A DNA stretch of 26,537 nt from a virus. Under the pieces are notes generated by a model. It was not told where the DNA came from. It was given only the letters and a program-made list of their open reading frames with translations, and did not search any database. A program made the translations under genes and the position numbers. This document shows positions 638-26,537 of the stretch, piece by piece (within the stretch, counting starts at the first letter, position 1; each line of letters begins with the position of its first letter). The stretch lies in the IMG/VR virus record IMGVR_UViG_3300037189_019624, positions 1-26,537 of that record. One strand, given 5' to 3'.

Positions 638-728
638 GCTGACTTTTAAAGAACCCATCGGTTGGATTGTAGTTTCTTGCATTTGCCTAGTGTGGACAAT
701 GATAATTTTTGTGAATAAACAGCCATGA
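615..728 (+). CDS. 37-residue single-pass membrane peptide, holin-like candidate
   Basis: This very short gene starts inside the end of the preceding coiled-coil gene and stops in an ATGA overlap with the endolysin start at 725. The product begins MNFLLSSELTFKEP and has one strongly hydrophobic segment at residues 15-33 (IGWIVVSCICLVWTMIIFV), then a short NKQP tail. Length, single membrane span and position directly before the endolysin fit a small holin or pinholin-like lysis peptide. The VVSC at residues 19-22 looks superficially like a lipobox, but the hydrophobic stretch continues past the Cys and only a short hydrophobic tail would remain, so a lipoprotein is unlikely. It fills what would otherwise be an 87-base gap in a tightly packed arm, which supports it being a real gene. 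Confidence 0.6.
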   Translation: MNFLLSSELTFKEPIGWIVVSCICLVWTMIIFVNKQP

Positions 729-1225
729 CTACGTTTGTTAAAGCTCTGCTCACTATTGCTCACCGTGAAGTTGGCGTTACCGAAGTTGGTAAGTCAAATC
801 GGGGACCACGTGTGGACCAATATCAACAAGCAACATGGCTGGACAAAAAAGACTGGGGAGCTTGGTGCGCAGCTTTTGTTTGCTGGGTTGTTCGTGAGGC
901 GCTTTCCCAAACCAACACCAAAGAAACCGATAATTTCAAGCGCCCGCGCACTGCTGGAGCATGGGATTTTGAGCGTTGGTCCTTGGCCCAGGACTCAACA
1001 ACGCAAACTCGCAAGCCAGCAGGCTCTGACATTCTTCCCGGAGACCTGATTGTTTTTAAATTTTCTCACATCGGCATTGCTCAGTCTGCACCTGATCGCC
1101 AGGGCAACTTCACCACCATTGAAGGTAACTCTAATTCCAAAGGCTCGCGCACAGGTGGTCAGGTTTGCGAGGGCAATCGCAACATCTCCCAAGTCCGCTC
1201 ACGTATTCGCTTTACACTGCCATGA
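725..1225 (+). CDS. Endolysin, CHAP/NlpC-P60-like peptidoglycan amidase or peptidase
   Basis: The 166-residue protein has the signature of a papain-like cell-wall hydrolase (CHAP/TIGR02594-like). The catalytic Cys is C48 in GAWCAAFVCWV, the general-base His is H115 in FKFSHIGIAQ after the turn ILPGDLIV, and the polar third residue lies in TIEGNSN (E133 or N135). The N-terminal helix ALLTIAHREVGVTEVGKS is also typical of this family. Such enzymes cut a peptide bond or the amide linkage in peptidoglycan. No signal peptide or separate cell-wall-binding domain is seen, so export would need a holin, consistent with the membrane peptide gene just upstream. It overlaps that gene and the next one by ATGA junctions (725 and 1222), pointing to translational coupling. 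A virion-associated hydrolase is possible but less likely. Confidence 0.78.
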   Translation: MTTFVKALLTIAHREVGVTEVGKSNRGPRVDQYQQATWLDKKDWGAWCAAFVCWVVREALSQTNTKETDNFKRPRTAGAWDFERWSLAQDSTTQTRKPAGSDILPGDLIVFKFSHIGIAQSAPDRQGNFTTIEGNSNSKGSRTGGQVCEGNRNISQVRSRIRFTLP

Positions 1226-3626: not shown

Positions 3627-4460
3627 ATGGCTTCTTCTGAAAAAGTCCACTATTCAATTTTTCCCATTGCTGGCTCTATCAACGAGCGTGGAATTATTCT
3701 TCATGTTCGCGAGAGTCGTTTTACTGCCAGCACAACGCTGGTAGCTGGAACAACTCTTGCTAACTTTATGTCAGCTGAAGCTGTGGACAAAGGAGATGCA
3801 ATTGAGCAAGGCTTTGGTTCTTACATTTACTGTGAACAACTGCCTAAAGAAGGCAATAACCTACGTTTTGTTTTTCTTAAATCTAAAACGCCAGCGGAAC
3901 AACTTCAGGTTGTAAAGCCAAGTTTTACCATTAACGAAACAACTTATTGGCCGGATTGGCTTCTTTCTCTTTACGCACTCGAGGCTGAGATTGCTTTGCA
4001 AAGTGAATCAGGTGTTCTTGGTATTGGCGGAAACACATCTAATGCCGTTACCGGCAAGCGTATCTTAGATCGCTATATTCTTTTTAAAGGTGGCGAATTT
4101 AACACCATTCACGAAATTGACGAGTTCTTTTCACCTGATCCAATTACCTCTCTTTCCGCTACCGAGCCTCGCCCCATGCCGGTGTTCTACAACTATTACG
4201 GTGTTCGCAATTCACTTAACTGCATTCATGCAGGTGTAACAGTTCCAGAACCATACATTACTGCAACTTTGGTCGAAAACTTCGGCACGCCTAACGCTCA
4301 AAAAGTAACCTGGGAACAGGGTTCAGTCTTTCCACCTACAAACCAGGTTGCTTGGATTCCACACTACCGCAAGTTAATTGTCACCGAACGAGATGGTGGC
4401 TTCTACTACCGCCGGCACAAAGTTCTCCCTCCTCGTCTTAACCGCGCAATTCAAATCTAA
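3627..4460 (+). CDS. 277-residue presumed virion protein, family not recognised
   Basis: The product is a soluble-looking protein rich in aromatic residues. It begins MASSEKVHYSIFPIAGSIN, has YWPDWLLSLYALEAEIAL at about residues 110-127, a RILDRYILFKGGEFNTIHEI segment and a Pro-rich part with PRPMPVFYNYYG, and ends HKVLPPRLNRAIQI. It starts one base after the preceding TAA with the context TTAATATGG and no Shine-Dalgarno site. Its 3' end is read in a second frame by a possible upstream extension of the terminase gene, but the in-frame ATG at 4465 avoids that overlap. No motif points to an enzyme. With the 227-residue neighbour it may form a pair of interacting virion proteins, judged only from adjacency. 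Confidence 0.6.
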   Translation: MASSEKVHYSIFPIAGSINERGIILHVRESRFTASTTLVAGTTLANFMSAEAVDKGDAIEQGFGSYIYCEQLPKEGNNLRFVFLKSKTPAEQLQVVKPSFTINETTYWPDWLLSLYALEAEIALQSESGVLGIGGNTSNAVTGKRILDRYILFKGGEFNTIHEIDEFFSPDPITSLSATEPRPMPVFYNYYGVRNSLNCIHAGVTVPEPYITATLVENFGTPNAQKVTWEQGSVFPPTNQVAWIPHYRKLIVTERDGGFYYRRHKVLPPRLNRAIQI

Positions 4461-4464
4461 CTCA

Positions 4465-5973
4465 ATGACTCCCGTTGACCCCGACCAGCAAGATCGACTA
4501 AAAGCTCTTCGACGCCTAGCCGAACTCCGTAAAAACTACGGACTCTTTGCCTATCGTCCCCAGCCTAAGCAAAACCTTTTCCACCTTGCTGCACATTACA
4601 AATACCGTTATCTTCGCACTGGCAACCGCTTTGGCAAGTCCACTTGCGGTTCTGCTGAAGATTGCGCTTTTGCTCTTGGCGCTCGTCTTTGGCTTCCTGA
4701 ATCCGATCCAAATCGGTATTTGGGGATTCCCAAGAGGGCGACAAAAGGAGTTATTCTTGTTGCTGATTGGGACAAGGCGCGGGAAATCTTTACTTCGCTG
4801 GAAACTGGAAAGCTGATGGCGTTCTTGCCAAAGGATCGAATTGAGGCTATTTTGAAAAATCAGGCTGGTGAGGTTTCGGTTATTAAGCTTAAGAATATCT
4901 GGGGAACTGTCTCTACGATAGAGCTGGACACTGTGCGGTCGTATATGGCTAATCCAATGGGACTTGAGTCTTCTCAGTGGGATTGGATTCATGTGGATGA
5001 ACCGATTCCTGAGGGAATGTGGAATGCGGTTAGTCGTGGTTTGATGGATACTGGTGGCTCAGCTTGGTTTACCTGCACACCTATTGCAGAGCAGTGGATT
5101 AATGAGTTTTTCCTTCCAGTTAAGATGATGAAGAGTCAGTTTGAGGAAGGGTTTTCCTGGGATAAGAAGCCTGAATGCTGGATCATGACTGGGTCTAGCT
5201 ATGATAATCAGACATTGGATCGTAAAGAAGTTGACCTATTTGCAAAGCAGCTTTCGGAAAGTGAAAGGGCTAGTCGAATTTATGGGTTGCCGAAGAACTC
5301 TCAGGGCCTAGTCTATGCGGAGTTTGACCAAGAAAAGCATGTGCAGATTGAATTGCCACATGGCTGGAAAGACTATGATGCACCGCCGGATAATTATACT
5401 ATTCGGGTTTTTATTGACCCGCATCCGCGCACACCTCATGCGGTGCAGTTCTGGGCTACCGCGCCGACAGGGCAATCGTTCTGTTATCAGGAAATCTTTT
5501 CTCCTTGCTATATTCAGGATCTTTGCTCGATGATTTTGAGGATTCTTAATGGGCGCACACCGTGGCAAATTTGCATTGACCCCATTGCTTTTATTCCTAA
5601 CCCGGTTGATGGTAAGTGCTACGCGGATGTCTTTATTGCTAATGGGCTTAATGTAATGCCCGCGCCTAAAGAACTTTCAACTGGGATTCAGAAAGCTAAA
5701 CAAGAGCTTATTCGGGAAAATAATATCTTTATTATGTCCTCGTGTTCGGAGACTATTAAGGAATTTTACACCTATTGTTGGGATAAAGATAAAGAAAAAC
5801 CCGTTGACAAAAACGATCACATGATGGAATGTTTCTACCGGGCGTGCGTTGTTGGCCTTGATTGGATTGATACTTCACGGCAAAACATAACCCTAGACAA
5901 GAGTAATTTTATGGATCGTTCGTTAGATCTAAACTTTTTCTCTTTTGGTAACTTTTCAAAAATTGCAGCTTAA
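4465..5973 (+). CDS. terL: Terminase large subunit (packaging ATPase and nuclease)
   Basis: The 502-residue protein is the motor that drives DNA into the prohead and cuts concatemers. Walker A is RTGNRFGKST (residues 51-60), Walker B is WIHVDEP with D178 and E179, and the coupling motif is WFTCTP (201-206). The C-terminal RNase H-like nuclease shows its acidic residues in VFIDPHP (D318), ICIDPIAF (D372) and KNDHMMECFYR (D451). An in-frame ATG lies at 4378, but it would overlap the upstream gene by 83 bases and add a Ser/Thr-rich stretch. The ATG at 4465 comes four bases after that gene's stop, so I chose it. Length and motif order match phage large terminases. Codon use changes sharply near 4711: the first 80 or so codons lack TTG, GGG, CGG and AGG, which become common afterwards. 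Confidence 0.96.
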   Translation: MTPVDPDQQDRLKALRRLAELRKNYGLFAYRPQPKQNLFHLAAHYKYRYLRTGNRFGKSTCGSAEDCAFALGARLWLPESDPNRYLGIPKRATKGVILVADWDKAREIFTSLETGKLMAFLPKDRIEAILKNQAGEVSVIKLKNIWGTVSTIELDTVRSYMANPMGLESSQWDWIHVDEPIPEGMWNAVSRGLMDTGGSAWFTCTPIAEQWINEFFLPVKMMKSQFEEGFSWDKKPECWIMTGSSYDNQTLDRKEVDLFAKQLSESERASRIYGLPKNSQGLVYAEFDQEKHVQIELPHGWKDYDAPPDNYTIRVFIDPHPRTPHAVQFWATAPTGQSFCYQEIFSPCYIQDLCSMILRILNGRTPWQICIDPIAFIPNPVDGKCYADVFIANGLNVMPAPKELSTGIQKAKQELIRENNIFIMSSCSETIKEFYTYCWDKDKEKPVDKNDHMMECFYRACVVGLDWIDTSRQNITLDKSNFMDRSLDLNFFSFGNFSKIAA

Positions 5974-5978
5974 AACTT

Positions 5979-6350
5979 ATGCCTGACTATAAGACTATTC
6001 CAAACCCAAGAGAATTCTTTGGTTGGTCACAAGACTACAAAGGGACTTTAGCCGATACTGTAAATCATCGCACTAACGTGGCTCCAGCTACTGGGCCTAC
6101 GCAAGATGATATAATTCTGGCTATTAACAAACTAATGGGCACGGCTCCAGCGCAAGCTAAACGTGCTCATGTGGGTATTCCATTTTTAATGCAAGCTGAG
6201 CCAGGAATGACTGCAATCTCTCCATCTCGTGAAGCCTATTCTCAAGCTTATGATTTAATTCAAGGAGCAAAACTTCCTGCTGACTTAGATCAAGCAGCTC
6301 AAACACAAATGCTTTTAGCTCATCTCCGTAGCCAAGGTATCCAACCATGA
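5979..6350 (+). CDS. 123-residue protein between terminase and portal, function unknown
   Basis: The product begins MPDYKTIPNPREFFGWSQDY, has a helical stretch around DDIILAINKLMG, and ends in helical, Ala/Gln-rich sequence (SREAYSQAYDLIQGAKLPAD and QAAQTQMLLAHLRSQG). There are no catalytic motifs, cysteines or membrane segments. It starts five bases after the terminase stop and its TGA overlaps the portal ATG at 6347 (ATGA), so it is almost certainly translated with the portal. Small helical proteins in this position are often head-completion or portal-associated factors, but I do not recognise this one. The gene is well supported; the function is open. Confidence 0.7.
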   Translation: MPDYKTIPNPREFFGWSQDYKGTLADTVNHRTNVAPATGPTQDDIILAINKLMGTAPAQAKRAHVGIPFLMQAEPGMTAISPSREAYSQAYDLIQGAKLPADLDQAAQTQMLLAHLRSQGIQP

Positions 6351-8218
6351 CCCCAGAAATTATCAAACGCCTTGAGGCTGAAATTCAGGACGAGAAGCTG
6401 GATGAGCTGCGGACTATGCTGGTTAGGAATCTGAACCGGTCTCGCGGCGACATGGCTAAGAGCTATCCCGCTTGGGACAAAGCTCTTGATACCTATCGTT
6501 CTATTCGCACCGCTGATGCACAAGACGCACGTGCGCGAAACAAAAACGAACCTGAAAAGATGACCGTGCCGCTATCCTTTGCGCAGGTCAACACGCTTGT
6601 CACCTTTCTTTTTCTTGCTTACACGCAAAAAGAATCTATCTTTGAACTTGAAGCCACAGGTCCGGAAGACTACGGTCCAATTCGTGATGCTTGTCAGGCC
6701 ATCCTTCAACGTGAAGAACGGCAAACTCGCTATTATTCCAAGCTTGTCCAGGCACTGCTTGACATGGCTCGATTTAAAATTGGTGTTTTAAAAACCACTT
6801 GGCGCTATGACACCAAAATGGTCAAGCGTGAACAACCTTCTATGGAACTTCCTTTTGCTGGCATGGGTGGAATTACCATGGCAATGGAAATGCCTGAGCT
6901 TCAAGACGATGAAGTCACCACCTACGAAGGTAACGAGGTAGATATTATCTCGCCTTACAATTTCTTTTTTGACACTCGGCAGCCAATTTCTCGCTGGCAG
7001 CAAGGTCGCTTTGCAGCAGATGAAAGCGAATACCACTTTCAAGACCTTCGCGCCATGGAAAAGGCTGGGTCATTGACCGGAACCAAGCACATTACAGCAT
7101 TCACCGCCGAAGCTTGGAAAAAGCGTGATCAAGGAACAAGGTTAGGTAGTGTTTCTCCGCAAGATACTAAGGTTGGAGAACCTAAAAAAGACTTTATGGT
7201 CTGCCTAACGACGGTTCAAGCTAAGATTGTTCCAGCAGATTATGACCTTAGTGACTCTCAGGAGGAAGAAATTTGGGTTTTTGCTATGGCAAATGATCAA
7301 CGCATTCTTGCAGCTAAGCCTTTGAATGCTCCTCATGGTGAATTTACCTATGACATTTTATCCCTTTCTCCTGATCAGCATGCCGAGATGTCTGATTCTC
7401 TTTCTTCACTGATTGATCCTCTGCAAGAAGTTATCACATGGTTGATTAACGCTCGTGTTGCCGCAGTTCGGCAGAACATTGAAGGTCGTTTTGTTGTTGA
7501 TCCTAGTTTTGTCGATCTTTCCACCCTTACCGCTGGTAGTAAATACATACTTCTTAAGAAGAACGCACCTTATAACCAGGGTGTTGCTGCATTTATTAGC
7601 CAGCTTAAGACCGTCGATCCAACGGTTACCCACATGCAAGATGTTCAGAGCTTGTCTCAGATCATGCAGGTGGTTTCAGGCGTGAACGAAAACTCTATGG
7701 GCCAGGTTGCTTCGGGCCGACGTTCCGCTACCGAAAACCGTGCAGCCAATGCTGGCGCAGCTTCTCGCATGAAGCTGATTGCTGCCACTGTGTGGATCGA
7801 CGGTCTTGCTCCCCAAGGACGCAAGATGCTGCTTAATTGCCGGCAAGATTTGACCTATGAGACTTATGAAAAAATCCTGGGTGAGTCTGCTATTAACACC
7901 TATGATAGTTTCCATCCACAGGACCCAGTAGAACTTCTTGGCAACGAAGACTATTTCTGCTACGACGGCACGCTGTCTTCTGAGAAGAATTACATGGCAC
8001 AGTCTTTGCAGGAGCTTATCATTGCTCTGGCCTCTAATCCTGAACTGGCTCAAGCTGCTGGCTTTGACCTAGTCGCGATGACTAAAGAAGCCTTTGCTCT
8101 GCGTGGGCTTAAAAATCTAGATCGTTTCCAACTCCCACCTCAACCTCAAAATGGACCAATCCCACCAACTCTCCCGCCAGGAAGCGGACCAGCTCCTGCT
8201 CTCCCTCCAGCTGCTTGA
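6347..8218 (+). CDS. Portal protein
   Basis: The 623-residue product lies directly before the scaffold and capsid genes and after the terminase, the usual place for the dodecameric portal through which DNA is packaged. Recognisable portal-like segments are the membrane-free helical N-terminal region, KMTVPLSFAQVNTLVTFLFL, LLDMARFKIGVLKTTWRYD, VDIISPYNFFFDTRQPI and ADESEYHFQDLRAM. Further on are DSLSSLIDPLQEVITWLINA, then GRFVVDPSFVDLSTL, and the crown-side ATENRAANAGAASRMKLIA. The tail is a Pro-rich linker (PPQPQNGPIPPTLPPGSGPA) whose DNA also encodes the start of the next gene in another frame. Length is in the range of podovirus portals. The start is fixed by an ATGA overlap with the previous gene. 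Confidence 0.88.
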   Translation: MTPEIIKRLEAEIQDEKLDELRTMLVRNLNRSRGDMAKSYPAWDKALDTYRSIRTADAQDARARNKNEPEKMTVPLSFAQVNTLVTFLFLAYTQKESIFELEATGPEDYGPIRDACQAILQREERQTRYYSKLVQALLDMARFKIGVLKTTWRYDTKMVKREQPSMELPFAGMGGITMAMEMPELQDDEVTTYEGNEVDIISPYNFFFDTRQPISRWQQGRFAADESEYHFQDLRAMEKAGSLTGTKHITAFTAEAWKKRDQGTRLGSVSPQDTKVGEPKKDFMVCLTTVQAKIVPADYDLSDSQEEEIWVFAMANDQRILAAKPLNAPHGEFTYDILSLSPDQHAEMSDSLSSLIDPLQEVITWLINARVAAVRQNIEGRFVVDPSFVDLSTLTAGSKYILLKKNAPYNQGVAAFISQLKTVDPTVTHMQDVQSLSQIMQVVSGVNENSMGQVASGRRSATENRAANAGAASRMKLIAATVWIDGLAPQGRKMLLNCRQDLTYETYEKILGESAINTYDSFHPQDPVELLGNEDYFCYDGTLSSEKNYMAQSLQELIIALASNPELAQAAGFDLVAMTKEAFALRGLKNLDRFQLPPQPQNGPIPPTLPPGSGPAPALPPAA

Positions 8219-9205: not shown

Positions 9206-10588
9206 ATGTTAGGTCTCATCTCTTCTACTGACTTGGAGGCACGTTACTCCGAGCGCGCAATGCGCCAAATCTTCTGGAAATATCCACAAGGTAAGGCAAT
9301 TCTTTCTTATCTTCTTAGTCTTATGGACAAAGAGGAAACTGACAAACCCAAGTTCTCTTGGTTTGAGCAGTCTCATAAACATCAGGAAAGCACGACGGCA
9401 ACGTCGGGTTCTCTTGGCGGCGGTGGCGCTGGTCCGTTTGTTAATTCGACAAACACCACTAGCCAAGCTGCTGCTGGCTTCACCTGGACTTCAGGCACTA
9501 CTTATGGCATCTATGTTGCTGATGCAAGCAAGTTTCTTGTCGATGACTGCGTGTGGATTAAGCGCGTGCCAAACGCAGCTGCTTCCGCTTTCCTTGATCT
9601 TAAAGGTGTTGTTACTGCTATCGATACAGCTTTGAATTACATCCTTGTCACTTCTACCGAAACTATTGCTTCGGTCAGCAATGACACTGATGCTAATTCT
9701 ATTGCTGTGATCAATATTGGTAAGTCCGCTGCTGAGGGTGATCGCTCTCGTCAAGGCCGTGTTGAATTTCCGATTGAACCGGAAAACTACACGCAGATCT
9801 TCCGTCAAGCTGTTGGTCCGTTTCCGTCCACTGCTCTCAAAGCTGGTCTTCGCTTTGACAAAACTGGCATTTACGCCAGCGCTGTTAAGCAAGCTTCGCT
9901 GGACATCACTGAAGCTATTGAAATGGCTTGCTTCTTTAGTGAGCGTGGCGTTCAAACTGTAGTCAATCAAAATGGCAGTTCTGTTCCTCGTCGCCAAACT
10001 GGTGGTGTTCTCTGGTTCCTGAAGCAGTATGAACTTGCTAATGGTGGCACGTTCCTTTACCGCGATGGTGCTTCTGCTATTACTAGCAGCGCCTGGCAGA
10101 CTGAGGAAGCTAAGCGTGTTATTCAGGTCAACGGTAACATCACTTGCGCTCAGCTTGAAGGTCTTCTTCGCCGCGCGTTTGAAAACACTGCTGATGGTTC
10201 TTTTGAAAAGCTGCTTGTTTGCGGTTCTACTCTCTATGACGTCTTCCAACGTTACTTCGCTCTGAAGTCTATCAAGACTACAATGCTGAAGACCAAGGAA
10301 GAATCCTACGGTATGACCATCAACATGTGGGAATCTCCTTGGGGCACTCTGTATCTCAAGTCTCATCCTCTCTTCCAGCGCCAAGCTTTCCGCTCTACGG
10401 GCTTTGTCCTTGACGTTGGTTGCCTTAGCTGGATGGATATGAATGATCGTGAAATCACTTTGCTCAAGAATCGTCAAAACAACGACGAAGACGGCCGCAA
10501 AGATGAATTCCTTGGTGAAGGTGGTCTTGTTGTAAAGGCTCCTGAAAATCATCTCTACCTGGAGGGTATCACTGGTCTTACGGTGTAA
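9206..10588 (+). CDS. Major capsid protein, resembling the DUF5309/SU10-type family
   Basis: The 460-residue product occupies the standard place after the scaffold. It starts MLGLISSTDLEARYSERAMR, continues with QIFWKYPQGKAILSYLLS and has KFSWFEQSHKHQ near residue 50. Later come RQGRVEFPIEPENYTQIFRQ, SLDITEAIEMACFFSERGVQ, and FEKLLVCGSTLYDVFQRYF followed by SPWGTLYLKSHPLFQRQAF. This pattern agrees with DUF5309-type HK97-fold capsid proteins of SU10-like podoviruses. Residues of about 68-170 form a Gly/Thr-rich insertion (SGSLGGGGAGPF onward) that could be a surface-exposed extra domain. No N-terminal delta domain is apparent, which agrees with a separate scaffold. Codon use is strongly biased to CTT, CGT, GCT and GGT, as expected for the most abundant protein. 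Confidence 0.88.
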   Translation: MLGLISSTDLEARYSERAMRQIFWKYPQGKAILSYLLSLMDKEETDKPKFSWFEQSHKHQESTTATSGSLGGGGAGPFVNSTNTTSQAAAGFTWTSGTTYGIYVADASKFLVDDCVWIKRVPNAAASAFLDLKGVVTAIDTALNYILVTSTETIASVSNDTDANSIAVINIGKSAAEGDRSRQGRVEFPIEPENYTQIFRQAVGPFPSTALKAGLRFDKTGIYASAVKQASLDITEAIEMACFFSERGVQTVVNQNGSSVPRRQTGGVLWFLKQYELANGGTFLYRDGASAITSSAWQTEEAKRVIQVNGNITCAQLEGLLRRAFENTADGSFEKLLVCGSTLYDVFQRYFALKSIKTTMLKTKEESYGMTINMWESPWGTLYLKSHPLFQRQAFRSTGFVLDVGCLSWMDMNDREITLLKNRQNNDEDGRKDEFLGEGGLVVKAPENHLYLEGITGLTV

Positions 10589-10591
10589 TTT

Positions 10592-10921
10592 ATGCCTGCA
10601 CTTACTGAAGCAAATGTGACGACTGAGCTTGGATTTTTTCAAGTTTCCTCGCCATATCAAATCCGCACGACCCAGGTTACTTTGGTTCTATCCAGCCAAG
10701 GCGGCACAACCAACACGGTTGACGCTGTTACGCTGGGTTATTCCAAACTTCTTGGTTCCACGCTGGCTCAGAAATCCGATGATGCTCTTGCACTACCCAC
10801 GTGCCCAAGCTACGACGGAACTAAGCTGTTTTTCTACAATCCTGCACAAGCCACTGACGCGAATCGTGATGATCCTGTTGATGTGACCGGAACTTTCCGG
10901 GTGCTTGTTTGGGGTGTTTAA
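10592..10921 (+). CDS. 109-residue capsid-associated protein candidate (cement or decoration)
   Basis: The product is a small, probably beta-rich protein: LTEANVTTELGFFQVSSPYQ, TTQVTLVLSSQGGTTNTVDA, then CPSYDGTKLFFYNPAQA and a closing TGTFRVLVWGV strand. The gene begins three bases after the capsid stop and ends at a terminator-like hairpin, so it is expressed together with the capsid protein, probably at a high level. Small proteins in this position often cement or decorate the capsid lattice. I see no homology that proves this, and the assignment is from location and composition. The start context is TTTATGCCT, without a Shine-Dalgarno site. Confidence 0.65.
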   Translation: MPALTEANVTTELGFFQVSSPYQIRTTQVTLVLSSQGGTTNTVDAVTLGYSKLLGSTLAQKSDDALALPTCPSYDGTKLFFYNPAQATDANRDDPVDVTGTFRVLVWGV

Positions 10922-14183: not shown

Positions 14184-17100
14184 ATGCCCACTTTTCAACA
14201 AATCTATTCGCAATATAACTCGGCTCGTCAGAAAAACCTTATTGGTCCTGACGAGTCGATTGCTGACTTTGCTAAAAAAGCTTTGGACTTTACCGGTGAT
14301 CCTAGTTATCAATCGGTAGCTGAGGGTGGAACTGTTGGAAACTGGGTGCGGCAGAGGTCTGCGGATTTGACAAATCTGGTAAACGCAGGCCCGGTGGATG
14401 AGTGGACAAGTGAAGCTGTTGGCCGAGTTGGCGATCTGTTTGGAGTTACTCCAGCCGCTTCTCGAGCTATGGGTGCAAGATTGCCACGTATGGCTGTGGA
14501 CTTTTTGCCAATGATGGCCGCAGCTCCTTTTACAGGAGGAGCAAGTTTTATTCCTGCACTAGGAATGGGAGCTACTAGCGCACTTAGTGCTGCAAGTGCT
14601 TATGAAGATACTGGCGAGTTAGGTAGTGCTGTTATTGGAGCTGCTGCGCCTTATCTTGGAACAGCGTTGGCTCAACGTGGCGGACAAGCTGCTTTAGGAT
14701 TAGCAGCAAAATCGCCAATGCTACAAAAACTTGGTTTTACTGGAGGAACCAAGTATGTTAATGCAGCGCTGTCTGAAGCAGAGCGTGCTTTATTAGCTGC
14801 TTCTGGCAATCTTTCAGCGGAAGCTATCGCAGGAACAACTGTAAATAAAACTGTAGTAGACCGGCTTGCAGATAAAGGTCTTGGTTATTTTGGTGGACAG
14901 CTTGCAGCAAACGCTGGGTTTTTTGGACTTGATACCGCTTATCATGGCCCTGCTGCAACTTTTAATCGCGATTACCTTTTTAACTCTCTTGTTGGAAACG
15001 TTGCTTTTGGTTTAGCAGATATTCCACGTGCTTTTAGTGCTAATGTTTTACCGGGTTCTCAAACATTTAACCTCCCCGAAGCTCCTAAGGTCTACAATTC
15101 TCCAGGAGAACAGCGCGCGGTAGAGGCTGCAGCAATGTTCCAGGACCTTAAAGATCCTGTTGCTTTTGAACAACAGCGTAAGAAATACGGCCTTGACATT
15201 GCTGATATTTCTATGAAAACCCAAGAGCTAGCTGAAGCATTGAATGCTAAAGAAATGGGCCTTCGGGTAAACGAAACTGATTTTATCTCTAAGTGGAACA
15301 ACTATGTGGCAAACACTCCTGAAGCTCAAGCAGCTCAGTTTCCCACCATCAAACGCGGCGGAGCTTTTGGTTCTGAGCTTCTAGGCATGAAAGAAGTGCT
15401 GGGTATGGAAAGCTTACCGACCAAAGCACAGGAGATTGTTGCTGGGTTTAAAAAGCAGAACGCTCAGTTGAAAGCCCAGGTTGATGGGGTGGTTAGGAAT
15501 TTAGGCTCGCCAATTAAATACACAGATAGTTTGAACCTTAGCGTGGAAAAGCTTGGCTTGGATGAATTCTTGCGGACTCCGTTAGAACAGCGGGATTATG
15601 CTACGGCATTGAAAGATTCGTGGATTTCGCTGGACGGCGCGGATTTGATTCGTGACATTCATCGAAAGGATGCTGGGTTAAAGCCATTGCGTCCTGATTT
15701 GTATCAGGAGTTTATTGATTTGTTTAAAGGCAAACCAGCCACGTTTACTCCGGACAAACATATGGAGTTGCTGGTTGCTGCAAGCTTGGCGCGGGGTAAG
15801 ACACCTAAGTTTGACTTGTCGAAGAAGCAAGCACAAGAAGCTATTAAGGAAGGCCAAACTGATGAGGTTGTGATTAAGGAAGCGTTGAAAGGAATGGAGG
15901 AGGAGAATAAGGAAACTATAAATACTTTTCGTCCACCTGTTAATACGCCAACTCCAGAAGCTATTGTTGTCGATACAGCAAAGTTGCAAGAACTTCAACA
16001 ACAAAGAGCTTTGCTTGAACAGCAATTAGCAACAGCGCAAGCTGAAGGACGTGAAATTGATGCAAGGCTAGATCAAGAAAATCTTGTAGAGCTTAATAAG
16101 CAACTAGATGAGGCTGATGCTAGGCTCAACAAATTTAATGAATTAAAAACTCAGGCTGAGGAAGCTCCTCCGCAAGTTCAACAAACAATTAGCGATCGAT
16201 TGATTGCTTCTATTCCAGCTAAGTGGCCTGAGAATGTTAAGGCTATTGTGGCGGACTTTTATCGCACTGGAGATGATACTCAGCTGAAAGAAATTGGTAT
16301 CGATAAAGATTCTGCTTTAAGAAAACAAGTTGCTTATCGTAACTTGCGCGAAGCCGATCCTGCTTATGAGCAGCGGTTGGTTGACTGGAACAAAGCTAGA
16401 ACAAAAGCTGATGCAGAGCGTAGGAAAGTTCTTAACACACTTCCGGTTAAACTAGAAACGCTTACTCCTGATATGCAGGAAGTGTTGAGGAACAACCGTG
16501 CAGATGTTCAGCGAATTCCAACTGAGTTTCTCTTGGCAGAAAACTGGAACCGAGTAAAAGATCAGGATGGAAATGAATACTTGATTCCAAAGCCGGAAGG
16601 TGAATTTCAGAGTGCTGAGGGGTTTGCCAAGACTCTGATGGGTAAATTGGTCAGCCCAGAAATGCTTTCTGAGAGTTCAAATGAACTGGTTAAACTAGCT
16701 AAGCTGCTGAACAATCCAGAAATTGGTTATGCAGAAATGGCTGCGGATAATGCACAAGTTTATGGTGCAGCTTCTTACAAGGCTAAACAGATTCTTCTTA
16801 ACACAAAAGCCTTCACCGGTCTCAAAGCCTCTGACCGCGCAGCTTTTGTCTTTGCTCACGAGCAATCTCACATTTCTTTCGCCAAAGCCATCGAAGGCAA
16901 GTATGGTCCCGATGCCAAAATCCAAGCTGAAAAAGCTCTCGCATGGGTAAACGCGGCTGACCCACAGATGAAGAAAAACGTCGAGGACGTTTTGAAAGAA
17001 CTGCATCTTGGCAAAGACCTGGCGCAGATGGATGGCATTCGTGATGTGTTGAATAACCCGGATTCACAGGAATGGCTTGCCAATGTCATGGGCATGTATG

Positions 17101-20100
17101 CTGTGGGGACGGTAAAGAGCCGTGCTCCAAAAGCAGCCTTTGCTATGCTACCGAAGCCGATTAGAGAATTTGCTGATTGGATGGTTGGGCATTTTCAAAG
17201 TCTTGTCAAAGGAGCTCAAAGCTGGATGCGGTTGTCTGGTGGAGATTATCAGGGCGCAAAGAATGTTAAAGACCTATTTGACACAATTCGTCGCTCTTAT
17301 AGGCAGGCTGAATGGGATGCTATGCAGGCAGAGAAGTTTTTGGACATTGAGCCTAGCTCTATGATTGAACGTGGAAATGAGTTTGCATTTGCACGAGATT
17401 ATAGCAAGCTGGGTCAGGTTGGTGATGAGCCTGTTACTGACATGGCTACGATGAAAAAGTTCATTGGTTCCACATGGAATAAGACTATTCAGTCAATGCA
17501 TACTTTGGCGAATACAAATGAGGAACTCTTTGAACCGGTGATGGCTGTGATGAATTCACATTCAGATACGACTAACACCATTGCAGATATTTTTAAAGTA
17601 GTTGCTGGAGAGCTTGATGGAAATGATAAACTTAGAATGACTAATCAAGCTTTTAAACGTGTATTTAGCTCTGAGCCGTTGACTAAGCTGTTTAATGATA
17701 TTCAAATTCGAGCTGAGGTTGCAGGAAAACGAATGATTACCGTAGATCCGCAGACTGGAAAAGAAGTTTTTGACATGACCGCGCTGTCACCTGAACTGCG
17801 TGGTAGGCTTACACAGTTTCAACCGGAGGCTCAAATGGCTTTGGTGACTATGACTGCGCAGGCAGAAAGAGCTAACGGATTGGCACAAAAGAAATTTCTT
17901 GAGTCCTCGTGGAGTAGGTCGATTTCTAATTTTGCCACGTTGCTTGGTGCAAAAACTTCTTTCAATAAGGCTGACTTTAAGAAAGCTCAACCTATTGCTG
18001 AAGGTGTGTTAAATGACTTAAAAGCGGCTAATGAAACTGTGGATACTTTCCAACAATCACAGTTAATGGAGCAGGCGGTTAGCAAACTTTCTGCACTGGA
18101 TGAAACAGATCAGGCTAGAGCAATGGAACAAGCACAGGAAATCTTTAGTCAATATGATGACTTGAAGAAGTTCTATGACGAACGTCCTGCGTTTATGTCT
18201 TTCCGTCGCTATGGTAATGTTAAGCAAAGAATTTCTAAACCAGGTCAACCAGATGATGTTATTGATGCTGATTCAAATGCAGACTTGGTTGAGAAGCTGA
18301 AGTTTTACAAAGCCCAGGGCTGGGAAGAAGTTGGTCCGCGTGAGGTGCCTGATAAGAAACAACGTGGGCAATATAACCTTAATGCGGAGCTGTTGAAAAA
18401 GATGCAGCTGCAAGAGCGCAGGTTTAAAGAAATGATTCAGGAAAGTCCTATTGATGCAGCGGATAAAGCTGCAATCTTGTCTACTAAGACCGCATCTGAA
18501 GTTTTGATTAGCGAAATCAATGCTAAGGAATTGTTTAGACCTACAAAACGCAGGGCGCTGTCTGGTGACCTTGAACGCTTTGATTGGTGGGAACAGTTTC
18601 AGAACTATATTCCCCGCGCGATAGCCTCGGCGCAGAGGGAAGCTCTTAATGCTAAAGTCAACCACTGGATGCAGAATCCAGCTTTGACAGATATGAGGTC
18701 GCAGAAAGATCAATTCCTTGCACTCTTTGAACAAAGCAAGCAGGCTGATCCGGAGTGGGCTAGGAAGTTAAATAAAACGAATGCTGTCTGGCATATCGGA
18801 TGGAACCTTCCTGGGCATATCGCTGAGGTGTTCCAGCCAATGATGTCTGGCGTGCATGAGCTTGTAGCTAAAGGAGAAAGTCTTCCTGGGGCGCTTAAGA
18901 TGTTTGCAAAAGCTGAAAAAGAAACTATTCGGCTGCATGCTTATAAGTTAAAAGACAAGTTCTTTAATCCTGACAAAGCTAAACTTACCATCAACGGTGA
19001 AGACTTTGAAGGCATGCCTGCTGTGTGGCTTAAAGCCAATGGGACAACACCTGAGCAGTTAAACATTGCTCGGATGTTGCAAGCAAAGCGAGATCGAATT
19101 CAAAAAGCTCCATTGAGTGAGTTGAGAGATTTTACTGGAGAAAATCATGCTCGCTTGCAAGATACTTTAGACGGTAAACGGCAGAGGACTTTAGGAGAGA
19201 TTATTGCCAGTCCCTTTACAATGTATGCTAAAGGGGCGATGGATTTTTACTCAAAGTTTACTCAGCACAATGGTGTTGTGACTTTGGTTACAGCGTATAG
19301 AAAGTTCCGCAAAGATGGTTTGTCACATGAAGATGCCATGCAACGCGCGGAGTTGTTTGACCTTACGGTTAATAACTCTGGTGGTAGGCTGGAGCGTCCT
19401 GAAATGTTTGGCAAACTCGGTGGTGCTGGACATATGGTTTATGGCTTGAGTAGTTATATTCGAGGACGCTTTAGCCAGCTGGCAACTTATTACCGTCATG
19501 GTTTTGATGCTAAGCAGTTTGAAGGCAAGCTAACTCCAGCAGAAATGAAATCTGCACGAAAAGCTTTTCAAACCATGATCTTGGCACAGGTCGGTGCTGC
19601 TGGTGTGCTGGGCATGCCTTTTGTCGGAGCTGGAATTGCTCTTATGGAAGAGCTGCTTGGCGAAGATCTCAAAGGTAAAATGATCAACGCATTGGATGAA
19701 GTGACCAACGATCCAACATTGACTAGGGTGTTTACTCATGGCATGATGTCAACATTGTCTGAGAGCCTTGGGGTTCCTGCAGATTTACATTCTCGCTTCG
19801 CTTTGAGTTCTTTCCTTGGGACGAATTCCTACGATGGTATGAGTGCCAAGTCATTCATGGGTCCATCGGTTGCAATGCTTGACTCGATGTTCAATCTTGG
19901 TGGTCAGATTGCTCAAGGTGAGGGCTTGGAGAAAGCTTTGACTGTTGCTGGTCCTGGTGGGGTTAAGCGTTTGGCCGAGGCTTTGAGTGAGGACTTTCAA
20001 CGGAACAATCCTGAGGGTAACCTGGCAATGTCAATGCTTGGCTTTAGGTCTAGCCAGCAGATGAAACAGCGTGAACGAGAACAGATTCTGCGTAAGCAAG

Positions 20101-20531
20101 AATTAGAAGCACGAAAAGAACTGACTAAATCAGCTACTGAGATTTCTAAAGCAATGGCATTGAGCCCGCGCCAGGGTCGCATGCAGCTAATGATGGAAGC
20201 AGATAGATTGCTGCCGCAAGGATTGGATCAGCAGGCGATAATTAAACAGCGCCAGCAGAATGTCCGAGACTTGATTAACAAAGTTGCAACAATTGAAGCT
20301 GATAAAGTTGGACCTCAAGACGTTCGTAGGGAAATTTCTGGGCGCGTAGCTCCGCTGGCAAGCCAAACCGCTCAGTCAATGGGAGTGCAAATGCCGAATC
20401 CGGTTGAACTTGCCCGCGCCTTGGCACAACAACAAACGCGTTCTAAACTGGGCGCGACGGTTAGCCAACGACCAATTAAGAACGCGATGTTGAGAGAGAT
20501 GCAGTGGGAGAAAAATCCCTGGGACTTCTAG
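14184..20531 (+). CDS. Giant internal virion (ejection) protein with a zinc-metallopeptidase motif
   Basis: The 2115-residue product is the largest in the window and closes the virion module. Residues 105-176 are Gly/Ala-rich and hydrophobic (DFLPMMAAAPFTGGASFIPA and onward), possibly membrane-interacting. Residues 600-660 form a coiled coil (KLQELQQQRALLEQQLATAQ). A metallopeptidase-like domain follows at about 850-965: KAKQILLNTKAF, then HEQSH at 892-896 (an HExxH zinc site), and EWLANVMGMY with E963 as a plausible third ligand. A second hydrophobic stretch lies at 1795-1826 (AQVGAAGVLGMPFVGAGIAL). The rest is long and helical, with a charged C-terminal part resembling large polyvalent phage proteins. 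By size and place it should be injected with the DNA and help cross the cell envelope. The gene starts six bases after the previous stop. The protease role is inference from motifs. Confidence 0.86.
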   Translation: MPTFQQIYSQYNSARQKNLIGPDESIADFAKKALDFTGDPSYQSVAEGGTVGNWVRQRSADLTNLVNAGPVDEWTSEAVGRVGDLFGVTPAASRAMGARLPRMAVDFLPMMAAAPFTGGASFIPALGMGATSALSAASAYEDTGELGSAVIGAAAPYLGTALAQRGGQAALGLAAKSPMLQKLGFTGGTKYVNAALSEAERALLAASGNLSAEAIAGTTVNKTVVDRLADKGLGYFGGQLAANAGFFGLDTAYHGPAATFNRDYLFNSLVGNVAFGLADIPRAFSANVLPGSQTFNLPEAPKVYNSPGEQRAVEAAAMFQDLKDPVAFEQQRKKYGLDIADISMKTQELAEALNAKEMGLRVNETDFISKWNNYVANTPEAQAAQFPTIKRGGAFGSELLGMKEVLGMESLPTKAQEIVAGFKKQNAQLKAQVDGVVRNLGSPIKYTDSLNLSVEKLGLDEFLRTPLEQRDYATALKDSWISLDGADLIRDIHRKDAGLKPLRPDLYQEFIDLFKGKPATFTPDKHMELLVAASLARGKTPKFDLSKKQAQEAIKEGQTDEVVIKEALKGMEEENKETINTFRPPVNTPTPEAIVVDTAKLQELQQQRALLEQQLATAQAEGREIDARLDQENLVELNKQLDEADARLNKFNELKTQAEEAPPQVQQTISDRLIASIPAKWPENVKAIVADFYRTGDDTQLKEIGIDKDSALRKQVAYRNLREADPAYEQRLVDWNKARTKADAERRKVLNTLPVKLETLTPDMQEVLRNNRADVQRIPTEFLLAENWNRVKDQDGNEYLIPKPEGEFQSAEGFAKTLMGKLVSPEMLSESSNELVKLAKLLNNPEIGYAEMAADNAQVYGAASYKAKQILLNTKAFTGLKASDRAAFVFAHEQSHISFAKAIEGKYGPDAKIQAEKALAWVNAADPQMKKNVEDVLKELHLGKDLAQMDGIRDVLNNPDSQEWLANVMGMYAVGTVKSRAPKAAFAMLPKPIREFADWMVGHFQSLVKGAQSWMRLSGGDYQGAKNVKDLFDTIRRSYRQAEWDAMQAEKFLDIEPSSMIERGNEFAFARDYSKLGQVGDEPVTDMATMKKFIGSTWNKTIQSMHTLANTNEELFEPVMAVMNSHSDTTNTIADIFKVVAGELDGNDKLRMTNQAFKRVFSSEPLTKLFNDIQIRAEVAGKRMITVDPQTGKEVFDMTALSPELRGRLTQFQPEAQMALVTMTAQAERANGLAQKKFLESSWSRSISNFATLLGAKTSFNKADFKKAQPIAEGVLNDLKAANETVDTFQQSQLMEQAVSKLSALDETDQARAMEQAQEIFSQYDDLKKFYDERPAFMSFRRYGNVKQRISKPGQPDDVIDADSNADLVEKLKFYKAQGWEEVGPREVPDKKQRGQYNLNAELLKKMQLQERRFKEMIQESPIDAADKAAILSTKTASEVLISEINAKELFRPTKRRALSGDLERFDWWEQFQNYIPRAIASAQREALNAKVNHWMQNPALTDMRSQKDQFLALFEQSKQADPEWARKLNKTNAVWHIGWNLPGHIAEVFQPMMSGVHELVAKGESLPGALKMFAKAEKETIRLHAYKLKDKFFNPDKAKLTINGEDFEGMPAVWLKANGTTPEQLNIARMLQAKRDRIQKAPLSELRDFTGENHARLQDTLDGKRQRTLGEIIASPFTMYAKGAMDFYSKFTQHNGVVTLVTAYRKFRKDGLSHEDAMQRAELFDLTVNNSGGRLERPEMFGKLGGAGHMVYGLSSYIRGRFSQLATYYRHGFDAKQFEGKLTPAEMKSARKAFQTMILAQVGAAGVLGMPFVGAGIALMEELLGEDLKGKMINALDEVTNDPTLTRVFTHGMMSTLSESLGVPADLHSRFALSSFLGTNSYDGMSAKSFMGPSVAMLDSMFNLGGQIAQGEGLEKALTVAGPGGVKRLAEALSEDFQRNNPEGNLAMSMLGFRSSQQMKQREREQILRKQELEARKELTKSATEISKAMALSPRQGRMQLMMEADRLLPQGLDQQAIIKQRQQNVRDLINKVATIEADKVGPQDVRREISGRVAPLASQTAQSMGVQMPNPVELARALAQQQTRSKLGATVSQRPIKNAMLREMQWEKNPWDF
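20528..20531. other. Overlapping stop codons of the two convergent arms
   Basis: The four bases CTAG hold the TAG of the giant virion gene (plus strand, 20529-20531) and the TAG of the helicase-like gene (minus strand, read from CTA at 20528-20530). There is no intergenic space, so any terminator hairpin for either arm would have to lie inside the opposing gene. Confidence 0.9.
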
Positions 20532-23103: not shown

Positions 23104-25572
23104 TTAAATTTCTCCTAGTCGATAGTCTTCATCTGTGTGCATCCAGGATTGACCGTAGCCTCCTTCAAAGGGGATAACAAGTCGCTCGTTGGCGATGGAT
23201 AGGGTGTTGTTGAAGTAGGATTGAATTTTTGCAATTGCCCATTCCGTTTTTTCAATTGGAAACTGTCCGCAAAGCGCGTCATGCACTGAGTGCAAGGGCT
23301 GGATGATAAGGTCACCGGACGTGGTTCTGTTGTCAGGATCGAGCCACAGCTTTTGCATGGCCAGATTTGTGGCATAGGTGGTATTGGCTTGGGGTTCATG
23401 GGCGTAAGCGGCTTTGAAGGTTTGGTCGTTACCTGGGCGTCCGAAGAATGTGCGGACGTGGCCTGAGGCACAGGAGAGGGTGCGGTGCTTGGTTACTTGT
23501 TGCTGGACCCAGCGTTGCCAGGAGAGCACACCGGGGTAACGTTTGAAGAAGACGTTTTGGACTTTTTTACAATCGTTAGGTGGAACCCAGACGACGTTGA
23601 GTTCGGCGGATTTTTTGAAGGTTTGAAGGAGGATGTTGTTCGCCATGGTGTTGGGGCCCATGTCGTATGAGGATCCGTGCTGAACAGCTTTGCAGACAGC
23701 GTAAAGATGCCCGGGGATGGAGACTGTCTTGGTGAGACGTTTGATCTCATCGCGGGGTAGGTCATTGATGTTTACGGTTACTTCGTTGAGCTGCCCTTGC
23801 ATTTGCATATACATGAGAGCGATGATTTTGGCAGGTTTCATACCTGCGCGGTAATCGTCGAGCATGGTGGGGTCACCGAGCATGGAGGCGCGAGAGGCTA
23901 CTGTCCAACCATCTGCGCCGGAAAGGTCACATTGGAAGAAGTGGTAGCCTGGGTCTGGCTGGTAGAGATATCGAAGCTGTTTTGTAATAGTCTGAAGGTT
24001 CGTTCCTGATCCTGTAACTGATCCTGAGCAAGACAAGCGGCCCGTCTCTGTTCCAACCAGGTTGTAGGAACATCTAACTCTTTCGTCAGGGTCAGTTGCC
24101 AGCTCAAGTTGCTTCCGAACGCCTTCGAGCTTCTTCCATCCGAGGGCGCAGGCCAAGAATGGATGAGTGTTTGCTCCTTGTTTGATGATGATTTTAAGCA
24201 TTGCGTCTGCATTGGCGGTGAGTTTAGTGGTTTTATGTCCAGCTTCCTTGATGTATTGAGGCTCAAAGCCGAGCTTTTTATACAGAAGGTCGCACATTTG
24301 CTTAGGTGAGTTAAGGTTGATTTCCTGGTTAGCATGACTATTGCAGGCTAACTGGAGCTCGAGCATTTTGGTTTTAATCTCGGCAAGATTAACTTTGGCA
24401 GCTTTAGTGTCATACTTGATTCCGCGCAGGGACATGTATTGCAAAGATGGGATCAGCGACATATTAAAGTCGTAATGCTTGCGTTGGTCTGGAGTCATCG
24501 CTGCCATGTGGTTTTGATGAATTTCCAGCGTTACGGCGGCATCTTTACAACAATAGGTTCGATGGAGTTTCTTTGCTTCGGTGATGTCAAGATCGGCACC
24601 AGAAGTTCGCTCGAATTTGTAGTATGGTTCCTTTGACCAGATGGACGCTTGAGTTCCCAGGCTTTTGGGAAGTTCAGGGTATATTTCCCAGCCTGATAGC
24701 ATGGTGTCATGCTGAATGTTTCGAGCGTTAATGCGCCACAGCCAGGCAAGGACAACGTAGTCATAGAGAGAGTTTTGTAAGACTTTAGGAATCGTGGGGT
24801 CGGACATCATTTTATTGAATGACTTCATTACGATGCCTTTGGTCTGGTCGTCGAAGTCAGAGAGGTTAATTGTCCAGGCTGAAGATGGATCGGTGGATAT
24901 ACCGATGCAGGTTACACCGTTGAGGTTTTTGTGAGTGGTTTCTTCTGGGTTTGGGACACCTCCTTCTATGTCCACGGAGCAAAGTCGTCCTTCCGAAATG
25001 GAGGCCAGTCTTGCAAGGCACTCGCTGGCGGTGAGGGAGGGTTCGAGCTTTCTGATGGGTAGGGATAACTCGTTTGAATGGGATTCTTCACAGGCACGGT
25101 TAATGTCAAATTGAAAAAGGGGTGCTTCGTCCCAGACTTTTTGCACATATCCTGGAGAAAAGGTTCCAAGGCATTTATAAGCGCCAAAACCAGAGAACAA
25201 GGTTCCTCGGTAAACGTTGATTTTATGATATACACCGGCAGCCCAGAGTGGCGTGCTACCGAGGAGCAAGATACAGTTAGGCTGAAACTTGTTGAGGTCG
25301 GACTTGAGAATTCGGAGGGACTCATGGAAGTCAGGATCAGATTTGTTAATGTTTTCTACGTCGCCGCTGGGCGGGATTTGATTATAGACATAACCGCGAA
25401 AGCAGTTAGACATGATGATACCGGAGTTTTGCAGGGCTGCGGTGAGAAGACCAGAGGAGGGACCAGCGAATGGTCGGCCCTGGGCAAGCTCGTGCGGACC
25501 TGGCGCATCACCGATAATGGCTAAGCGGTAAGGTGCAGGGGAGAGAGGAAAGGCGTTGGGAAGGTGGGTCAT
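23104..25572 (-). CDS. Family A DNA polymerase with N-terminal uracil-DNA-glycosylase-like domain
   Basis: The 822-residue protein has three parts. Residues 15-160 match the UDG superfamily (COG1573): GDAPGPHELAQGRPFAGPSS at 21-40, ILLLGSTPLWAAG at 101-113 and TFSPGYVQ at 137-144, where the usual His of the HPS/HPA motif is Ser. Residues 195-355 form the 3'-5' exonuclease: Exo I VDIEGG (D201, E203), Exo II QNSLYDY (N267, D271) and Exo III YCCKDAA (Y340, D344). The polymerase has GRLSCSGSV at 511-519, motif A CDLSGADGW (D549), motif B CKAVQHGSSYDMG (K628, Y636) and motif C SVHDALCG (H764, D765). It is the replicative polymerase by place and domains. SPO1 polymerase is a known precedent for the UDG-like fusion. 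The start overlaps the methyltransferase stop as ATGA. Confidence 0.94.
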   Translation of the reverse strand: MTHLPNAFPLSPAPYRLAIIGDAPGPHELAQGRPFAGPSSGLLTAALQNSGIIMSNCFRGYVYNQIPPSGDVENINKSDPDFHESLRILKSDLNKFQPNCILLLGSTPLWAAGVYHKINVYRGTLFSGFGAYKCLGTFSPGYVQKVWDEAPLFQFDINRACEESHSNELSLPIRKLEPSLTASECLARLASISEGRLCSVDIEGGVPNPEETTHKNLNGVTCIGISTDPSSAWTINLSDFDDQTKGIVMKSFNKMMSDPTIPKVLQNSLYDYVVLAWLWRINARNIQHDTMLSGWEIYPELPKSLGTQASIWSKEPYYKFERTSGADLDITEAKKLHRTYCCKDAAVTLEIHQNHMAAMTPDQRKHYDFNMSLIPSLQYMSLRGIKYDTKAAKVNLAEIKTKMLELQLACNSHANQEINLNSPKQMCDLLYKKLGFEPQYIKEAGHKTTKLTANADAMLKIIIKQGANTHPFLACALGWKKLEGVRKQLELATDPDERVRCSYNLVGTETGRLSCSGSVTGSGTNLQTITKQLRYLYQPDPGYHFFQCDLSGADGWTVASRASMLGDPTMLDDYRAGMKPAKIIALMYMQMQGQLNEVTVNINDLPRDEIKRLTKTVSIPGHLYAVCKAVQHGSSYDMGPNTMANNILLQTFKKSAELNVVWVPPNDCKKVQNVFFKRYPGVLSWQRWVQQQVTKHRTLSCASGHVRTFFGRPGNDQTFKAAYAHEPQANTTYATNLAMQKLWLDPDNRTTSGDLIIQPLHSVHDALCGQFPIEKTEWAIAKIQSYFNNTLSIANERLVIPFEGGYGQSWMHTDEDYRLGEI
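23112..23116 (-). promoter_or_regulatory. Possible Shine-Dalgarno site for the 67-residue gene
   Basis: On the minus strand AGGAG lies ten bases before the ATG at 23101. It is the only SD-like match at a usable distance among the starts inspected. It is also part of the last codons of the polymerase gene (Leu-Gly-Glu), so it may be coincidental. Confidence 0.4.
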
Positions 25573-26537
25573 ACGAAATTAACTTGTCCTCCTAGCATTG
25601 CTTTGTAGGTGTCTTTCACACGGTTTTCCAATTCAGGGAAGCGTTTGTCGTCGATTTCACAGCCGATGATTTTGCAACCGCGTAGGATACAGGCGCGGAG
25701 AATAGAACCGCCGCCTGCAAATGGGTCGAGGATGGTCATACCTGGGAAGTGAATTGGGTCGAGGATCATCTGGTTGATGAAGTCGAGCGGTTTGGCAAAG
25801 GGATTAGACTGGAGTTTTTTATCCGGCATGCCGTCGACTTCGAGATGGCACTTGGTCATAGGTTTTGCTAGGCGTGGAGAGCCTTTCTTCATAACCATGA
25901 CAGGTTCATAGGACTTGGTGGGGTTGATATGTGGCGCGTTGTTTTTGCACGAGTGCGGCTTAAGCCAGAGAAGATTCCAGTCGAGCACATTGAAGCCAAC
26001 TTCGCGTCCCCAGGTAGCAAGCTTTTCTTGATGTTGCTGGGCGTAGAAGAAGAACAGATAAGTGTTGTCTTTAAGCACACGATAAGCGCCTTGGAGGAAA
26101 GGTTTCATCTGTTCTACGTTTTGATTGACATCGTGGGTAGAGCGCATTTGGTCAATACCATGCATGTCTTCCATAAGGTCCATGTCAATGCCATAAGGGA
26201 TGTCGGTGATAATGGAGTCGATCGAAGACGGCGCGAGCTTTGTCATCATGAGTTCTACGCAGTCCATGTTAAACAAGCGGTCAGAGATTTGCACCGTGCG
26301 CATTTCACGAATTTGCTCTGGGGAAGCTGGAGTTACCGATAGTGCAGCAGGAGAGGTGGTGTTGCCGAGTTGGATAGAGATGATGCCAGTGGGCTTGGTG
26401 GACTTGGCTGGTTGAGGAATGACTAGGACGTTGGCGGATTGAAGGGCTTTGGCTTTGATGGCGTCTTGCTCTTTGCGGCCAAGGAGAATTTGCTTAGCTT
26501 GGTCGAAAGTTTTAGCGTCCCAGATTTCTTTATCTTC
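25569..26537 (-). CDS. DNA methyltransferase (beta-class N4/N6), N-terminus cut by the right window edge
   Basis: The frame is open from the right edge to a TGA at 25569-25571, so 322 residues are visible and the true start may lie outside. Numbered from an internal Met at 26303, the catalytic motif IV is DIPYG (34-38, an unusual form of DPPY), followed by a target-recognition-like part. Then come motif X (NPFAKPLDFINQMI, about 167-180) and the SAM-binding motif I DPFAGGGS (193-200), with IIGCEID (212-218). The order IV then X-I marks the beta class that methylates adenine N6 or cytosine N4. About 78 residues precede the Met, with helical sequence (EDKEIWDAKTFDQAKQILLG) and a Pro/Ala/Ser linker, as in a longer N-terminal domain. 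It likely protects phage DNA from host restriction. Starting at 26303 is the alternative. Confidence 0.86.
   Translation of the reverse strand, partial: EDKEIWDAKTFDQAKQILLGRKEQDAIKAKALQSANVLVIPQPAKSTKPTGIISIQLGNTTSPAALSVTPASPEQIREMRTVQISDRLFNMDCVELMMTKLAPSSIDSIITDIPYGIDMDLMEDMHGIDQMRSTHDVNQNVEQMKPFLQGAYRVLKDNTYLFFFYAQQHQEKLATWGREVGFNVLDWNLLWLKPHSCKNNAPHINPTKSYEPVMVMKKGSPRLAKPMTKCHLEVDGMPDKKLQSNPFAKPLDFINQMILDPIHFPGMTILDPFAGGGSILRACILRGCKIIGCEIDDKRFPELENRVKDTYKAMLGGQVNFV

Follow-up and report, generated by a model that had tools for sequence, protein, structure and literature searches.

A giant late gene and its HExxH motif

The window analysed here is the whole 26,537-nucleotide stretch of the IMG/VR virus record IMGVR_UViG_3300037189_019624 (positions 1 to 26,537). 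An open reading frame on its plus strand, at 14184-20531, encodes a giant protein of 2115 amino acids (aa), in which a preliminary description had pointed out an HExxH metallopeptidase motif. We propose that this giant of an uncultured phage is a polyvalent protein, probably packaged and ejected, which carries a probable zincin-like (HExxH + Glu) domain with self-processing as its preferred role, and we give this reading as a whole a probability of about 0.6.

The giant is encoded by the final gene of the structural operon, the place where podophages keep their ejection proteins. Upstream on the same strand lie the genes for the terminase (4378-5973), the portal (6347-8218) and the major head protein (9206-10588), followed by several unmatched late genes. 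Beyond the giant, on the opposite strand, are replication genes: a DUF3987 primase/helicase-like gene, a DNA ligase, a uracil-DNA-glycosylase (UDG)-exonuclease-PolA fusion and a DNA methylase. Because the order runs from terminase, portal and major head protein through small late genes to the giant, the protein is probably a virion protein, and by this synteny it would be built into the particle and reach the host with it. The same label in the preliminary description agrees with a late-operon position typical of packaged and ejected giants.

The motif and its surroundings read in the translation as previously described: HEQSH occupies residues 892-896, KAKQILLN precedes it at residues 866-873, and EWLANVMG begins at E963, 67 residues past H896. 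The segment first singled out, 16728-17096, corresponds in frame to residues 849-971. By chance, HExxH is expected at a mean of 0.011 per shuffled giant protein. The features of this region are as follows:

16740..17108, plus strand: probable zincin-like metallopeptidase domain, residues 853-975; invariant G-x-A-S...I-x-x-N...HExxH...EWLAN, weak Pfam M48 match, register with the C1 domain of N4
16779..16802, plus strand: KAKQILLN, residues 866-873, strand-like, with I870 and N873 invariant; paired by hhalign with 'DKTIYLVSP' of the N4 virion RNA polymerase (vRNAP)
16857..16871, plus strand: HEQSH, residues 892-896; H892 and H896 predicted to bind zinc, E893 predicted to be the general base; H-E-x-x-H invariant in five giants
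17070..17072, plus strand: E963, the Glu of EWLAN and predicted third zinc ligand; from the motif to residue 1042, no other Glu or His is invariant in the five giants

Conservation of the predicted active site

Scans of IMG/VR returned four divergent homologous giants, L038 (2182 aa), L005 (2730 aa), L018 (2241 aa) and L020 (incomplete at its end), whose domains are 62%, 62%, 53% and 43% identical to that of the window, respectively. Loss of HExxH in close relatives, an outcome named beforehand as contrary evidence, was not seen: all four giants keep both EWLAN and H-E-x-x-H. In the five giants the motif is HEQSH, HENSH, HEQSH, HEHAH and HEHAH, so that only the x positions vary, and H892, E893, H896 and E963 are all invariant. 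This invariance says more than the rarity of HExxH in shuffled proteins. The window domain has four His residues, of which H892 and H896 are the only invariant ones; D950 is also invariant. E963 had been suggested as the third ligand of a gluzincin, and its invariance in all four homologous giants, where such a ligand would be expected, supports this at the level of sequence. In a four-sequence alignment, 35% of the zincin columns are invariant, versus 23% over the shared length. Two further contigs carry the same giants: a twin contig in IMG/VR, identical to the window over the 20 kb compared, is not independent, and a cut-short copy of the L005 giant, from a contig of a different sample (L004/L010), adds nothing.

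A more distant comparison is provided by L026, which encodes a giant of ~2670 residues and a head protein with 39% identity to that of the window. The C-termini of the two giants are homologous (hhalign P=5e-8, 439 columns), and the L026 giant has a HELGH at residue 721 which hhalign pairs with window H892 (P=0.026). As this distant giant carries an HExxH aligned to H892, the region bearing the motif appears to be an old part of the giant chassis. Later in the L026 protein, 'YYETFAQTF' could be the source of the Glu ligand. The L026 giant (L053:15-8048) contains two HExxH sequences ~90 residues apart, FHEDYH and HELGH, and it is only HELGH that aligns with the window motif.

Searches of named phage genomes returned no homologue of the giant or of any insert described below, nor of the zincin domain at a meaningful E-value; the giant showed no sequence similarity among 50,697 phage records, the bacterial and archaeal genomes searched contained no homologue, and a PDB sequence search gave no meaningful match. 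No domain of the giant reached a Pfam, PHROGs or NCBIfam cut-off.

Similarity to zincin families

Comparison with metallopeptidase profiles, which the preliminary description had recommended, gave M48 (PF01435) as the best Pfam match of the isolated window domain (E=0.0017, 18.7 bits), yet it lies below the gathering score of 20.3. The match covers the strand and the HExxH helix but, of the 186 profile positions, no more than the first 77; weak M48 matches were found in three of the five family members. In cells, M48 is mostly a family of membrane peptidases. SprT-like, another HExxH family, matched one member with E=0.08.

Alignment by hhalign to the zincin of N4 vRNAP places VYGAASYKAKQILLN...HEQSH on IYGWTNFDDKTIYLV...HELVH in the correct register, with P=0.0038 using a single sequence and P=0.019-0.048 using nine sequences. 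The score of 23.1 compares with a shuffled mean of 14.5, and one of 150 column shuffles scored higher. These profile similarities are weak but point towards zincins, and taken with the conservation they suggest that residues 853-975 quite probably form a zincin-type domain. Zinc binding and peptidase activity are predicted for it from the sequence.

A single insertion site at residue 852

In the five-giant MAFFT alignment, the large insertions that the four relatives have and the window lacks all fall at a single site: 108 (L038), 142 (L018), 171 (L020) and 635 (L005) additional aa follow residue 852, and no other insertion relative to the window exceeds 15 aa. The four-sequence alignment puts the insertion at the same site within one residue, and anchor distances agree: LLNNPE (residue 841) and YGAAS (residue 860) are spaced by 19 residues in the window versus 127, 161, 190 and 654 in the relatives. 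The site and the inserts are located as follows:

16737..16742, plus strand: candidate cargo slot, residues 852/853; empty in the window, with 108, 142, 171 or 635 aa inserted in relatives (MAFFT insertion map, anchor distances)
L038:4398-4778, L018:15000-15485, L020:17224-17796 and L005:10503-12467: inserts in the relatives

BLASTP matches between inserts are limited to their left ends, within the first 12-75 residues and strongest over the first 25, and the remainder is unmatched apart from one 11-residue match with E about 1. The inserts are thus, by sequence comparison, largely unrelated to each other. That of L020 is weakly GNAT-like (Acetyltransf_CG, E=0.042; solved YjdJ structure, E=0.0098), and a recurring domain suspected in the L005 insert (GWAMVQ...GEQQSRWGQ) was confirmed by no search. 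We read site 852 as a cargo slot bordered by the constant zincin. The left-end sequence shared by the inserts of the relatives suggests that the window phage lost a cargo rather than never having had one. As the M48 match (residues 850-898) starts before or at the slot, the slot may lie within the zincin domain: if the zincin begins with the helix that ends near residue 845, the slot would separate this helix from the strands.

A DTQFA-like motif marks the left cargo boundary and may recur beyond the zincin. It was located at the left cargo edge at residue 854 of L005, 853 of L018 and 825 of L038, and again after the zincin at residue 1694 of L005 and 1202 of L018. The second copy in L005 scores 24.7, above the 99% shuffle level of 21.7, and that in L018 scores 19.0, near the 95% shuffle level of 19.7; the same motif scoring against shuffles found no clear copy in the window or L020. 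As a lead only, the motif is a possible processing or cleavage site, or a linker. The corresponding place in the window is:

17379..17396, plus strand: EFAFAR, residues 1066-1071, a lead only; relatives have DTQFAK or DLQFAK there, resembling the left cargo boundary GDTQFA

Comparison with known systems

Zincin-like metallopeptidases are described as the commonest domain of polyvalent proteins, present in about 36% of them, including N4 vRNAP (PMC5512222). The zincins described by Iyer et al. in 2017 (PMC5512222) have HExxH on one helix, the Glu on a later helix and a variable stretch between, an arrangement that HEQSH and E963 of the window may share, and polyvalent proteins resemble the window giant in being very large multidomain phage proteins encoded among late genes, with neighbouring domains that differ between relatives (PMC5512222). 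There are also differences: by sequence, none of the curated domains of polyvalent proteins matches the window giant, and the Asp three residues past HExxH that is seen in one widespread polyvalent phage clade is absent (HEQSHISF). Polyvalent proteins carry several recognised domains; among the companion domains of this giant family, the weakly GNAT-like L020 insert is the only one for which a resemblance was found.

N4 vRNAP consists of a membrane-associated N-terminal part, the RNA polymerase, the HExxH domain C1 and the long helical C2 (PMC12633501). The window giant is arranged as an N-terminal chassis, the slot, the HExxH domain and a long C-terminal part, so that both N4 gp50 and the giant have the zincin after a large N-terminal part and before a long C-terminal one (mostly helical in N4), and the N4 polymerase occupies the place analogous to the slot. 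In C1 (gp50 residues about 2124-2375) the strand and HExxH are in register with the window, and we liken its distal Glu helix, ALNEFMAW, to window EWLAN from our reading of two alignments. By our conversion of the residue numbers, the two His of the C1 motif are H2228 and H2232; N4 vRNAP has the deposited structure entries 9pnr and 11gp. Homology of the window zincin to C1 is weakly indicated. N4 has an RNA polymerase domain before C1; Pfam and PHROGs detected none in the window giant. We considered the giant as an N4-type member and rejected this: homology between its C-terminus and N4 C2 is not detectable (P 0.53), which leaves an analogy of domain order only. T7 gp16-type ejection proteins (PMC8954989) are likewise large last proteins of a podophage-like late operon and expected to be ejected; no lytic transglycosylase domain of the T7 gp16 type was matched by Pfam in the window giant.

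The preliminary description presented a zinc protease built into an ejection protein as a notable delivery system; this cannot be claimed as new, as polyvalent zincins and N4 vRNAP had already been described (PMC5512222). With zincins already known in polyvalent proteins, which phages are proposed to inject together with their DNA (Iyer 2017; N4 gp50), the window giant looks like a further example rather than a new kind of system. What is new here is the single variable insertion site beside a constant zincin.

Proposed role of the domain

We wondered what a zincin in this position would do. The zinc would be bound by H892, H896 and E963, with E893 activating the water. The substrate would be the giant or another protein of the virion, cut either before ejection or after it; in relatives, processing would free the cargo. 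The zincin would belong to the constant chassis and close, on the C-terminal side, a slot which relatives fill differently and the window leaves empty. We favour such an intrinsic processing job over a fast-diversifying weapon directed at the host because the zincin is constant, is conserved like the chassis, adjoins the variable segment and is kept without cargo. Precedent comes from P1 DdrB, which undergoes processing, probably by its own zincin (PMC5512222). Proteolytic self-processing of the giant, taken as a specific claim, is tentative, with a chance slightly short of even.

Some findings weigh against this reading. AlphaFold models of residues 843-1057 (4 sequences; predicted local distance difference test score, pLDDT, 70) and 786-1057 (5 sequences; pLDDT 56) are both essentially all-helical over 843-1057, without the three-stranded sheet that in zincins packs against the HExxH helix, and the structure matches of these low-depth, low-confidence models are globins and generic helical proteins, with no zincin among them. 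The zincin region, too, stays below every curated cut-off of Pfam, NCBIfam and PHROGs. Among proteins of this kind, N4 vRNAP is the best studied, and it enters the virion without being processed (PMC5512222). Finally, the zincin persists in the window, where the slot has no cargo to release, which argues that cargo release cannot be its only role. Because the alignments were shallow, we treat the AlphaFold outcome as a failed test and not as disproof of the fold.

The all-helical models with their globin-like matches, together with the weakness of the zincin-family profile matches, would be expected if HExxH were a coincidence in an unrelated helical domain, for example a helical ejection-protein module, and no zinc were bound. 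This is quite improbable: an HExxH is rarely expected in such a protein by chance, the H/E/H/E quartet is invariant in five giants and the distant L026 giant has HELGH, while the models rest on 4-5 sequences. Invariance of the three ligands and the general base, while their neighbours vary, also makes it unlikely that the zincin fold serves a structural purpose in packaging, ejection or domain packing and has lost, or never had, peptidase activity, as a purely structural domain would not need the quartet. An active zincin could instead be an injected effector which cuts host envelope, defence or regulatory proteins after ejection, as the preliminary description had considered for the first two. 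Polyvalent zincins have been proposed as effectors in some cases (PMC5512222), the late-operon position is compatible with ejection, and the domain is retained when cargo is absent. However, nothing was found that points to a host substrate, and it is the neighbouring slot that varies while the domain is conserved like the chassis, neither diversified nor swapped, which makes this role rather doubtful.

Self-processing, our preferred role, can be extended to a more speculative scheme that we regard as unlikely in its entirety: a delivery chassis with one exchangeable slot at 852, in which the constant self-processing zincin would free the occupant at DTQFA-like boundaries, the window would be a natural empty-slot version, and the N4 RNA polymerase would be cargo in an analogous slot, as there, too, a zincin directly follows on the C-terminal side. 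The task of zincins in injected phage proteins has been a question since 2017, with self-processing, activation within the host and cleavage of its proteins as the candidates. This clade, with one chassis and zincin, four different inserts and one member without an insert, offers a natural comparison in which the role is testable by contrasting processing where cargo is present with processing where it is absent. A slot that is real and tolerant would also explain how effectors are gained and lost without disturbing packaging.

Other features of the giant and the window

The remaining features of the giant are:

14184..20531, plus strand: whole giant late-operon protein, open reading frame 3' of the terminase-portal-head block; homologues in L038, L005, L018 and L020
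14184..16739, plus strand: N-terminal chassis, residues 1-852, with an Ala/Gly-rich stretch around residues 100-170; ends in LLNNPEIGYAEM, the left edge of the candidate cargo slot
17109..17354, plus strand: helical region after the zincin, residues 976-1057, with conservation equal to that of the zincin
18552..19946, plus strand: conserved C-terminal chassis, residues 1457-1921, aligned to the distant L026 giant as above; hydrophobic segment by hydropathy near residues 1797-1826

Elsewhere in the window, a CHAP-domain endolysin-like protein is encoded upstream of the structural genes (725-1222, plus strand). On the minus strand, the DNA polymerase (23107-25572) has an N-terminal domain of the UDG superfamily (residues 12-149, E=1e-10) fused to the 3'-5' exonuclease and PolA, and L005 has an 821-aa open reading frame at the place matching this fusion. 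The N6/N4 DNA methylase (25572-26303, minus strand; Pfam E=2e-20) at the right end probably continues the replication gene block. A 389-codon open frame runs antisense to the major head protein gene (9491-10660, minus strand), as does a 579-codon frame in L005 (3591-5330); the antisense frame over the head gene is probably a by-product of codon use.
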